Shown here: positions 15,989 through 46,358 of the stretch, in pieces
Numbering within the stretch: position 1 is the stretch's first letter
Layout: each line of letters begins with the position of its first letter
DNA from: Sulfurovum sp. NBC37-1
Lineage (GTDB): Bacteria > Campylobacterota > Campylobacteria > Campylobacterales > Sulfurovaceae
Direction: 5' to 3'
Length of the DNA: 64,000 nucleotides
Assembly: GCF_000010345.1 (NCBI RefSeq)
Contig: NC_009663.1
Span: 1,922,001-1,986,000, forward strand
Made by a program: the position numbers and the translations under genes
The notes under the pieces: model-generated
Seen by the model: only the letters and a program-made list of their open reading frames with translations
The model's database searches: none
What the model was told of the DNA's origin: nothing

Positions 15989-16073
15989 TGGTGCGTCAGA
16001 GAGGATTTGAACCTCCACACCACTAGGGCACTACCCCCTCAAGGTAGCGTGTCTACCGTTCCACCACTGACGC
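15989..16073 (-). tRNA. tRNA-Leu (anticodon GAG)
   Basis: 85 nt with the CCA encoded. The acceptor stem pairs GCGTCAG with CTGACGC, discriminator A. The anticodon stem-loop is CTACC-TTGAGGG-GGTAG, which gives anticodon GAG. A long variable arm typical of class II tRNA follows, and the T arm has GGTTCAAAT. The gene lies between HU and atpE on the minus strand. Confidence 0.97.
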
Positions 16074-23372: not shown

Positions 23373-24641
23373 TTAGAGCGCCTGGTACGCGATATCGGTA
23401 CGGCACTGCTTTCCGGCGAAATGGACCTGGCCTACCAGCATATAGGCACGCTTCTGCGCCTCGGCAATGCTGTCACCCACTCCCACACATACCAGGACCC
23501 GTCCGCCTGTCGCATAAAGCTTCCCATCTTCACCGCGACTCACACCTGCATAAGAGATGTGGGCATTGCCTTCAAGGTCGGGATGATGGATATCATCCAC
23601 GATGATCTCGGCAGGTTCTGAAGATTTGTAAGGGTAGTCCTTGCTTGCCATAACAACACCTACGGCATATTTGTCATAAAATTCGATCTTGGCTGATTTG
23701 AGGTCACCGACAGCCGCTTTGTAAAAGAGTTCACTGGCCGGTGACTTGAGCAATGGCATCAACTCTTCACATTCAGGATCACCGAAACGTACATTGTACT
23801 CAAGAATGATCGGCTCGCCTTTAACCACCATCACACCGATAAAAAGTACACCCGTGAACGGCATCCCCTCTTCTTCCATCCCTTTGAGCGTCGGCTTGAT
23901 GACCCGCTCATCCAGTTTGGCATAGATCTCGTCATTGACCAGCGGTGTCGGTGCATAGGCTCCCATACCGCCGGTATTGGGGCCTTCATCATTGTTCAGC
24001 AGTCTTTTATGGTCCTGTGCCGCAGGCAGTACCACATAATCCTTCCCATCACAGATTGCAAAGACAGAGAGTTCATACCCGTCAAGGAACTCTTCTACCA
24101 CGATGGAAGTTCCCGCTTCGCCGAAAGAGTTCCCCGAAAGCATTTCTCCTGCCGCTTTTTTCGCTTCATCACGGCTTTGTGCGATGATCACCCCTTTACC
24201 GCCACAAAGTCCATCCGCTTTAACTACGATAGGCGCTTCAAGCGTATTAATGAACTTGTATGCTTCTTCAAGCAGGTTCGTTTCAATATATCTTGCCGTA
24301 GGTACATTATGTCTTGCAAGGAAGTTCTTCATGAAGATCTTGGAACCTTCGAGCTGCGCCGCCTTTGCCGTAGGACCGAATATCGTCAGGCCTCTGGCTT
24401 GGAATACATCGACGATCCCCTCGACTAAAGGTGCTTCAGGCCCCACGATCGTCAGATTGACACCGTTGGCTTCCACAAAATCCGCCAGGGCATTGAAATC
24501 GCTGATATCAAGATTCTCACCCAGCTCATTCGTTGCACCGTTGCCAGGGGCAAAATAGATCTTCTCTACATTCTCATCTTTTTGAAGTGCCAGACCGATA
24601 GAGTATTCCCTACCTCCAGAACCTATGATCAATACATTCAT
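23373..24641 (-). CDS. purD: Phosphoribosylamine-glycine ligase (GAR synthetase)
   Basis: 422 residues with the PurD start MNVLIIGSGGREYSIG, an ATP-grasp domain (PIVVKADGLCGGKGVIIA) and the C-terminal signature EYNVRFGDPECEELMPLL. It makes GAR in purine synthesis. The ATG at 24641 has CGGAGAA upstream; the frame happens to stay open a further 100 codons into the structured spacer, but that extension has no homology to PurD. It is the first gene of the operon purD, RDD, lptD, J domain, PRTase, pnp. Confidence 0.97.
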   Translation of the reverse strand: MNVLIIGSGGREYSIGLALQKDENVEKIYFAPGNGATNELGENLDISDFNALADFVEANGVNLTIVGPEAPLVEGIVDVFQARGLTIFGPTAKAAQLEGSKIFMKNFLARHNVPTARYIETNLLEEAYKFINTLEAPIVVKADGLCGGKGVIIAQSRDEAKKAAGEMLSGNSFGEAGTSIVVEEFLDGYELSVFAICDGKDYVVLPAAQDHKRLLNNDEGPNTGGMGAYAPTPLVNDEIYAKLDERVIKPTLKGMEEEGMPFTGVLFIGVMVVKGEPIILEYNVRFGDPECEELMPLLKSPASELFYKAAVGDLKSAKIEFYDKYAVGVVMASKDYPYKSSEPAEIIVDDIHHPDLEGNAHISYAGVSRGEDGKLYATGGRVLVCVGVGDSIAEAQKRAYMLVGQVHFAGKQCRTDIAYQAL

Positions 24642-24690
24642 GATTTTCTCCGAAAATTTAAAAGTTACAGTATATTCAAGCAAGGGTTTT

Positions 24691-25006
24691 TTTAGTAGTG
24701 ATGATAATTGTGCGTAGAGGATTTTCAAAAAGGTTTGAAGGCGAACTCCCCGTTCGTCGATAACCTTTTTGGAAGTCCTATGCGTGCAAGAATCATCGCT
24801 AATAAAGGGCCCGAGTGGCCGTTCTGTTAAAGTCGGCCCTAAAAAAGCCAACGATGCAGGAGAGAGCGGGCCTTTAGGAGGCAATTTCTCACGGGTTACC
24901 CCGTTCGAACGAAAATGTCTACACACCGGCCCGACTACATGTCCCACTAAGAATAATGTTGGACCCCATATACAGTCATCGAACCACTCAGGTTAAATAG
25001 ATTATA
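24691..25006 (+). ncRNA. Candidate structured non-coding RNA, unknown class
   Basis: About 315 nt between purD and hemD with no supportable gene but strong structure. On the plus strand, 24691-24806 folds into a hairpin of roughly 40 pairs; six arm differences are all G-U on the plus strand and would all be A-C mismatches on the minus strand, which argues for plus-strand RNA. AGGGCC/GGCCCT (24806-24840), CGGG/CCCG and CGTTCGAACG hairpins follow. Against this, the minus strand has a TATAAT at 25006-25001. It is not recognisable as tmRNA, RNase P RNA, SRP RNA or 5S. The family is unknown. Confidence 0.55.
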
Positions 25007-25054: not shown

Positions 25055-25696
25055 TTAAAGTGATTTCGCTTTTTCAATACAGGAGGAGATCAGAGGTTCC
25101 TCCGCCACGACATAATTGGCATCCTCGGGCAGGTGTACTTTTGTCGCCCTCCCTATGACCACGGCAGTATAACTTTCATCCCAGTCAAAGTTTTTCATAA
25201 AACAGTGGATTGTAGAGGGAGAAGTAAAAATAATAATGGCATTTTGCACAGGTTTTTCTTTGGATGAGTAAGAGATACATCCCGTCTCATAAATGATCTG
25301 CTCCTGCAGATCGATCCCCGCTTTTTTCAGAAACGCTTTGGAATCAAAAGAAACTTCCCTGGGACGAAGGTAAAGGATCTTTCTTTGGGAAAAATGTCTG
25401 ATAATATCCTGGCTGAGTGTTTCTCCGTAATAGGAATCCGGATGATATATCACCTCTCCTCCAAGGGCTTCAATCTGTTTCTTTGTTGCCGCACCAATGG
25501 CGATACAGGGGTAATTTTTCCACTTTTTATCGACATTGTCAGCCGTAACAACCGCCTGTTTGGAAGTGAACATCAGTGTATCGCAACTGTCAAAATCTAT
25601 ACTGTCCGCTACCGTAGAAAACTGGATCATCGGCAGAGAAATGGTATCTGTTCTGGGTGTCGGGGACAGAAGATAGATTTCTTTTTGCGCAGACAT
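25055..25696 (-). CDS. hemD: Uroporphyrinogen-III synthase
   Basis: 213 residues with the weakly conserved HemD pattern: TLMFTSKQAVVTADN in the first domain, PCIAIGAATKKQIEALG, then ILYLRPREVS and IIIFTSPSTIHCFMKNF in the second, and AVVIGRATK. It closes hydroxymethylbilane to uroporphyrinogen III for haem. The ATG at 25696 overlaps the stop of the cation efflux gene by one base (TGATG), so the two are translationally coupled. Confidence 0.88.
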   Translation of the reverse strand: MSAQKEIYLLSPTPRTDTISLPMIQFSTVADSIDFDSCDTLMFTSKQAVVTADNVDKKWKNYPCIAIGAATKKQIEALGGEVIYHPDSYYGETLSQDIIRHFSQRKILYLRPREVSFDSKAFLKKAGIDLQEQIIYETGCISYSSKEKPVQNAIIIFTSPSTIHCFMKNFDWDESYTAVVIGRATKVHLPEDANYVVAEEPLISSCIEKAKSL

Positions 25697-26634
25697 CACT
25701 GACTGACTTTTTCCAGATCGACCAAAGGTTTTCCGTGCAGCATAGCTACATTGATATCTTCATCATCATAGGGATCAAAGTGTGGCGTGATCAGCCAGCG
25801 TCTTTTATCATCGAGCTTCATGATCTTCTCTTCAACCTCATCGGCAATACGATGTGCTTCAAGCAACAGCATATTAGGACGCAGGACCATATGGAACTCC
25901 ACAAAGTTTGTCGTTCCGTCCGTCCGCGTCTTGAGCCAGTGGTAACTCGTCACTTCGGGATGATTGGAAATGATCTCTCCGATCTTGGCGACCATATCTC
26001 CATCGAGCGATTTGTCAAGCAGTATTTCAATCCCTTCAACAATGATCTCATAAGCTGAATAGATGATATAGAGACCGATCCCGAGACCGAAGATTGCATC
26101 TATCTCATCCAGTCCCGTCAGAGCGACCAGCCCCAATGCTACAAGAACCGCAGCATTGCTCCAAAGGTCTGTTTTGTAATGCAGGGCATCTGCTTTGATG
26201 ACAAGATTGTTCGTCTTTTCGGCAATATTGATCAGATAGCGTACCAGAAGATAGGTGACCACAATAGAGAAGAGCATTGCCATAATGGAAGGGGTCAGCA
26301 ATTTTGTAGGATTTCCCTGGATCAGTTTTTCAATCGCCACATATATAATATATATTCCCGATATCGTAATGACCGTACCCTCAATAACCGAAGCGATCGC
26401 CTGTATCTTTCCTTTTCCATATTGGTAAAGATCATCCGGGTCCTCTTCTGATTTCTTGATGGCAAAAAAGTTGAACATGGAAACTGCCATATCCAAGAGC
26501 GAATCGATCGCAGAAGCGAGTACGGCAACCGAGCCGCTGGCGATCCCGATAGCGAGTTTTACAACAAGCAACAGTGTGGCAACAGATGTCGATACAACGG
26601 TTGCTCTTTTTTGTGGTGACATGAGTGTACTCAA
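25696..26634 (-). CDS. Cation diffusion facilitator (FieF-like) metal efflux protein
   Basis: 312 residues: six predicted transmembrane helices and a C-terminal metal-binding domain. The transport site residues are visible as DSLLD in helix 2 and HYKTD in helix 5, the D-x3-D plus H-x3-D pattern of the Fe/Zn-type CDF proteins. It exchanges Zn2+ or Fe2+ for protons across the inner membrane. The TTG at 26634 has AAAGGA 7-8 nt upstream; the alternative is an ATG 12 nt inside. It is coupled to hemD, which may hint at iron or haem balance. Confidence 0.9.
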   Translation of the reverse strand: MSTLMSPQKRATVVSTSVATLLLVVKLAIGIASGSVAVLASAIDSLLDMAVSMFNFFAIKKSEEDPDDLYQYGKGKIQAIASVIEGTVITISGIYIIYVAIEKLIQGNPTKLLTPSIMAMLFSIVVTYLLVRYLINIAEKTNNLVIKADALHYKTDLWSNAAVLVALGLVALTGLDEIDAIFGLGIGLYIIYSAYEIIVEGIEILLDKSLDGDMVAKIGEIISNHPEVTSYHWLKTRTDGTTNFVEFHMVLRPNMLLLEAHRIADEVEEKIMKLDDKRRWLITPHFDPYDDEDINVAMLHGKPLVDLEKVSQ

Positions 26635-46267: not shown

Positions 46268-46358
46268 TACGATGAAAAGCCAAACCTGCTGTGAAAGCAG
46301 GAGCGGAAAGTTGTGGGTCTTCATTTTGAAGACAGCCAGACTGCCAAGCGTAAGCCAT
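46268..46358 (+). ncRNA. Cyclic-di-GMP-I (GEMM) type riboswitch
   Basis: The leader of the giant-protein operon has the GEMM order of elements: CCAAACC, a hairpin CCTGC/GCAGG with a GUGAAA loop, the linker AGCGGAAAG, then a second hairpin opening GGGTCTTC and closing GAAGAC followed by AGCCAGACTGCC. This matches the GGGUC...GACAGCC...UGCC part of the consensus. The outer P1 pairing is weaker than usual. A CTCAG/CTGAG hairpin (46397-46414) follows before the ribosome site and could be the expression platform. The downstream genes are surface and pilin genes, as expected for c-di-GMP control. Confidence 0.75.

Follow-up and report, generated by a model that had tools for sequence, protein, structure and literature searches.

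In this work, the spacer between purD and hemD of Sulfurovum sp. NBC37-1 was found to hold two structured features, which lie on opposite strands and meet at about position 24804. This Sulfurovum-type genome has its 6S RNA on the minus strand, in a feature that Rfam has long carried as the purD motif. The plus-strand feature is a long hairpin, related to a dispersed palindromic element, and comparison of relatives shows that selection has preserved the folding of its plus strand across most of the genus. We consider this overall reading, in which 6S RNA is adjoined by a repeat-derived hairpin selected on the plus strand, to be probable. The 6S half was already known. The hairpin is new, and no published description of it was found in titles and the beginnings of abstracts on 6S RNA, MITE/IS1380, the tmRNA leader and Sulfurovum small RNAs.

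Organization of the purD-hemD region

The window is the whole stretch of DNA that was analysed, 64,000 nucleotides of a genome that forms a single contig of 2,562,277 bases. Positions are those of the window, and the features are as follows.

15989-16073, minus: tRNA-Leu (GAG), the only tRNA in the window
23373-24641, minus: purD (identity confirmed by GARS domains)
24692-24805, plus: conserved long hairpin of 114 nt, a relative of a dispersed palindromic element lacking the terminal inverted repeats (from fold, covariation and conservation)
24695 with 24802, plus: G.A mismatch (G24695 with A24802; 40/50 genomes)
24708-24716, plus: left arm UUGUGCGUA of the near-invariant helix, paired to 24781-24789
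24717 with 24780, plus: conserved G.A mismatch (G24717 with A24780; 44/50 genomes)
24736-24761, plus: UGAA/GAU internal loop and apical part (from the fold)
24740-24746 with 24752-24758, plus: apical stem (from the fold)
24747-24751, plus: apical loop (from the fold)
24781-24789, plus: near-invariant right arm UGCGUGCAA, pairing with 24708-24716
24938-24809, minus: Rfam RF01069, the purD motif (93.5 bits, cut-off 41)
24994-24804, minus: 6S RNA (ssrS), about 190 nt; the -10 box predicts its start, and the 3' end is approximate
25029-25001, minus: 6S promoter TTCACT, 17 nt, TATAAT, predicted from sequence
25055-25699, minus: hemD (identity confirmed by the HEM4 domain)

The observation of a structured block in this spacer is confirmed, and its first interpretation is supported in part. 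The flanking genes had been named correctly, the block is GC-rich as described, and the minus-strand TATAAT that had been pointed out is present at 25006-25001. No supportable gene had been seen in the block, and this holds, as the 75 aa ORF of the plus strand runs across the 6S gene and the one on the minus strand prolongs purD upstream. What had been described as one structured block of about 315 nt is indeed structured, although it is not a single unit. The label "unassigned" has to be given up for 24804-24994 (RF01069 in Rfam and 6S RNA in the literature), but it stands for the hairpin half, which has no Rfam name. Likewise, a structured RNA on the plus strand is retained for the hairpin half only, by covariation and strand-specific pairing. 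A clear Rfam match was to count against the original prediction, and the search names just the 6S half. Elsewhere in the window, a c-di-GMP-I riboswitch aptamer was detected at 46269-46348 on the plus strand (53.6 bits, above the Rfam cut-off).

6S RNA on the minus strand

The RF01069 match corresponds to the inner part of the 6S RNA, exceeds its cut-off and lies upstream of purD on the strand of purD; the motif was found in 70 of 78 genomes of the genus and in 273 of 298 genomes of the order. In C. jejuni, a 185-nt RNA upstream of purD, the top-transcribed non-coding RNA after rRNA and tRNA, folds as 6S RNA and includes a proposed purine riboswitch. The H. pylori 6S RNA comes from the same region, and the purD motif was reassigned to 6S from the transcript data of both species (PMC3847290). 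For this C. jejuni and H. pylori counterpart of 6S, a 13 nt antisense RNA is reported there as pRNA. Against the 6S family RF00013 itself, the window RNA aligns over the full model length (24997-24804, minus strand) with 20.7 bits, which is below the cut-off of 46.4 bits. This low score fits the strong sequence divergence described for 6S RNAs of this class (PMC3847290).

The consensus of the 6S RNA in 40 relatives (alignment A2, 40 of 70 genus sequences) is a rod of 51 pairs, 25 of which show double changes, and its shape, with a closing stem, a wide internal region and a long terminal stem, is kept by covariation. At the promoter site, the -10 box reads TATAAT in 66 of the 70 genus loci and TACAAT in 2, and 2 have none; this count argues for a sigma-70 promoter of its own for the 6S gene. 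At two loci (L013 of G021 and L011 of G062), a short inverted repeat, AGAGGCAATCGCCTCT, occupies the expected -10 site, and the 6S promoter may be displaced there. The window RNA thus agrees with the 6S RNA of Campylobacterota (ssrS; RF01069) in its place upstream of purD, strand, length of about 190 nt, rod shape, closing stem and sigma-70 promoter. Half of the block is thereby settled as a known global regulator, and the "riboswitch-like" label of Rfam is misleading in this clade.

Structure and strand of the hairpin

The long plus-strand hairpin that had been claimed is real. The plus strand of 24690-24806 folds with -61.0 kcal/mol (z -11.8; 0 of 200 shuffles as stable), and the minus strand of the hairpin with -34.8 kcal/mol (z -5.7). 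Its bias towards G-U is stronger than the six pairs originally counted, with 10 G-U among 51 pairs on the plus strand and 0 on the minus strand in a script fold of a slightly longer stretch. The plus strand was the more stable one in 49 of 50 genomes, with a mean of -50.8 kcal/mol versus -29.4 kcal/mol for the minus strand.

At the base of the hairpin, a 10-bp stem stands above a G.A mismatch and is followed by a 2x2 loop. The middle is formed by a 9-bp near-invariant helix of the left and right arms, another G.A mismatch and an 18-bp variable stem, and at the top the UGAA/GAU loop leads to a 7-bp apical stem. G-U wobbles are kept at three positions of the near-invariant helix (in 45, 40 and 41 of 50 genomes). 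The sequence of the terminal loop, UCCCC in the window, is not kept across the genus.

On the strand of the hairpin, the sole Rfam match was mir-5014, with 27.9 bits at a cut-off of 101, so the hairpin falls outside that family. No terminator-like site for a plus-strand hairpin RNA was found at the window locus, and no -10 box at a fixed position was found on the plus strand across the genus relatives. Matches in phage records were limited to short Bacillus phage segments of 83% identity (E 0.3) and were rejected.

Conservation and selection at the 6S locus

The hairpin could be aligned at 50 of the 70 genus 6S loci (alignment A1), the other 20 having no clear anchor or a cut contig; many genomes of the genus are incomplete draft assemblies. 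A covariance model, R1, was built from these 50 copies adjacent to 6S and matched directly 3' of 6S in 55 of the 70 loci, the 50 training copies included. By BLAST, the hairpin was found in 53 of 175 family genomes, where the weakest matches are short and possibly due to chance. R1 matched at none of the 27 6S loci searched in other genera; a match abutting 6S was seen in G106, which belongs to another genus of the family. In 15 of the 70 genus loci, some of them in nearly complete genomes, the hairpin is missing or unrecognisable, and thus it is not essential. A few of the hairpin-less loci fold better on the minus strand, e.g. that of G006 (-27.5 versus -10.9 on the plus strand). At L031 (G014), L063 (G064), L060 (G065) and L037 (G019), an AT-rich repeat of AAAATT units takes the place of the hairpin downstream of 6S.

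Mean pairwise identity in the 50 genomes was 0.70 for the hairpin, close to the 0.76 of 6S and the 0.75 of the purD start, and fell to 0.33 in the stretch that separates the hairpin from purD (47 of the 50 genomes). On a tree from 6S and purD, 35 helix positions together gave 109 double changes in which one Watson-Crick pair replaced another; event counts from parsimony on a single tree are approximate, and the number of double changes would be inflated by discordant histories. Single steps on the same tree led from Watson-Crick pairs to G-U 43 times versus 19 times to A-C, and the reverse steps started from G-U 44 times versus 3 times from A-C. The strand-symmetric pair count in the 50 6S-locus copies was likewise 360 G-U versus 115 A-C. 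Since the compensatory changes proceed through G-U and not through A-C, and the pairing is specific to one strand, the plus strand is selected as a folded single strand, which is most likely RNA.

Dispersed relatives and IS1380-type ends

A plain BLAST search of the window's own genome gave no further copy of the hairpin above chance. With R1, on the other hand, 79 of the 175 family genomes gave matches at E 0.01 (those adjacent to 6S included), with up to 18 in a single genome, where the two strands of a copy were sometimes counted apart; at 1e-4, 26 of the 298 order genomes had matches. The matches elsewhere score 55-75 bits. The copies examined at other places are hairpins of about 165 bp in intergenic regions, which share the loops and the preferred strand of the 6S-adjacent ones, and the 45 dispersed copies among the matches listed hold 396 G-U versus 31 A-C pairs, a count that includes three tmRNA-leader copies and L187, all without IS1380-type ends. 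The genome of the window carries ten full copies in both orientations, all of which fold better on the forward strand as defined by sequence (partly judged by eye). Among 57 listed copies, the left neighbour within 400 nt is a minus-strand gene in 37 of 50 cases and the right neighbour a plus-strand gene in 27 of 44; the elements thus favour the 5' sides of genes.

Most of the dispersed copies in this genome have terminal repeats such as ACCCGGATTATGCA, a repeat that occurs in many phyla among the matches listed. At L349, an IS1380-family transposase gene (249.9 bits, cut-off 180) has a repeat of the AACCCGGATTATGCA type at one end and a near match at the other. The dispersed copies have these features of IS1380-type MITEs: they are short, without ORF, with inverted repeats, in several copies and with an autonomous relative that has the same ends. 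A very short version of the terminal-repeat element, about 80 bp, was noticed at L243:1441-1520 (G074). The core of the window copy is homologous to the dispersed members, as R1 matches these elsewhere and matched none of 28 control loci with unrelated hairpins bearing the same ends. No IS1380-type terminal repeats were found beside 24692-24805, whose right flank is 6S, and the tmRNA copies are without such ends as well. Many of the dispersed copies carry these repeats and the window copy has none, so the window hairpin is most readily explained as an old copy preserved where it stands.

A Y1 (RAYT) transposase was considered as the mover and rejected: Y1 was found in 127 of 175 family genomes, but the element-rich G011 has 10 R1 matches and no Y1 at 1e-5, which also sets the element apart from REP/RAYT repeats, defined by their link to the Y1 tyrosine transposase. 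In other phyla (Bacteroidota and others), elements with AACCCGGATTATGCA ends favour one strand with 183 versus 89 pairs in 25 relatives oriented by homology to one copy. This bias is weaker than that in Campylobacterales and concerns elements that are not homologues of R1; the lean is seen, e.g., in L304, L327, L329, L277 and L293. In one further set of terminal-repeat elements the better fold determined the orientation, and the G-U counts of this set therefore say nothing about asymmetry.

Copies in the tmRNA leader

At 4 of the 33 tmRNA loci searched (G048, G066, G034 and G045), R1 matched in the leader of tmRNA, and the other 29 had no hairpin. The elements (L166, L170, L182 with the element at 1001-1123, and L471 at 1904-2026) are preceded by a TTGACA/TATTAT-like promoter and followed by the mature 5' end, and they lie on the strand of tmRNA. 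Three of the four may represent a single insertion. The structured strand is thus the transcribed one in the tmRNA leader, and at the 6S locus it is opposite to the 6S strand.

Alternative explanations

The hairpin could be an independent trans-acting sRNA, with transcription that converges on 6S and possibly starts inside purD, and with maturation by RNase III in the manner of CJnc190. This would agree with the strand-specific conservation of the structure and with the UCCCC loop of the window, as CJnc190 of C. jejuni, an extended stem-loop too, has a C/U-rich loop and is cleaved by RNase III (PMC8687705), and a TANNAT-like hexamer is present antisense in the start of purD in many genomes. 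However, the hexamer is explicable by the codons of purD, the loop varies through the genus and no terminator was found, so we regard such an sRNA as unlikely. The minus strand might also be the one that matters, as a processing site for the 3' end of 6S or as a purD leader. On that strand the hairpin is directly 3' of 6S and 5' of purD, its fold is beyond chance (z -5.7), and a promoter-like pair lies within it at 24728-24701. Still, conserved C.A mismatches break the minus-strand pairing and the -10 sequence of that pair is not kept in the relatives (by eye), which makes a minus-strand role highly improbable.

G.T is the best tolerated mismatch in DNA too, and the selected strand could act as single-stranded DNA or a cruciform, e.g. 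at a recombination or replication site, with no need for RNA; the relation of the family to mobile elements and the lack of a conserved promoter would suit such a role. DDE-type transposases act on double-stranded DNA, and those of IS1380 are of this type, whereas the presence of Y1/RAYT transposases, which use single strands, does not follow that of the element (G011). As the structured strand in the tmRNA leader is moreover the transcribed one, a role as DNA seems improbable. Finally, template-switch correction of imperfect palindromes is a known process, and in an old neutral repeat it could generate false compensatory changes, while strand-biased mutation could generate the G-U excess; that the relatives are dispersed repeats is in line with this. 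But 40-45 of 50 genomes retain the G.A mismatches and the three G-U pairs that correction should erase, and the hairpin, next to a spacer with an identity of 0.33, is conserved almost as well as 6S and purD. The ten full copies, in both orientations, also fold better on the forward strand, so that neutrality is quite improbable.

Proposed role of the hairpin

We infer that the selected plus strand acts as RNA, given the tandem U-G/G-U wobbles, G.A mismatches and UGA/GAU loop that are kept and the relatives that are transcribed in that direction in the tmRNA leader. As one joint and tentative proposal, which we hold possible, the hairpin would be a processing site of the RNase III type for double-stranded RNA, at which transcripts running into the 6S gene from the direction of purD would be cut or shielded, and the hairpin in the tmRNA leader would be removed during maturation. 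More speculatively, a domesticated mobile-element hairpin beside 6S may make a double-stranded-like RNA from the plus strand that acts on the expression of 6S or purD, and, more widely, IS1380-type miniature elements of several phyla may have strand-specific RNA structure under selection; we consider this doubtful at present.

Comparison with known repeats and significance

The dispersed relatives resemble IS1380-type MITEs, being about 165 bp long, without ORF, and bounded by the terminal repeats found at the end of an IS1380 transposase gene. The window copy differs in having no terminal repeats and one fixed place in the genus, and strand-specific pairing such as that of the hairpin family is not a defining feature of MITEs. 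ERIC, NEMIS and YPAL are described as MITE-like repeats, which are folded in transcripts and affect the genes next to them (PMC3733652), and the hairpin resembles these palindromic repeats by description and not by sequence comparison. The same source reports both GTAG and CGTC repeats in Sulfurovum NBC37-1, and the stems of REP/RAYT GTAG repeats are given there as 5-13 bp, in contrast to about 50 bp and no dependence on RAYT for the hairpin here. CJnc190 comes from the same bacterial class and is likewise an extended stem-loop (PMC8687705), a likeness in shape, CJnc190 being an RNA and the hairpin a predicted one.

A repeat-derived hairpin beside 6S thus displays compensatory evolution and a choice of strand, and some relatives have it in the tmRNA leader, which is transcribed. 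Were the hairpin beside 6S transcribed as well, it would clearly exemplify how a miniature element of bacteria can be taken into use as RNA. If the domestication described above is true, a repeat regarded as "DNA" would have an RNA stage or an RNA function.
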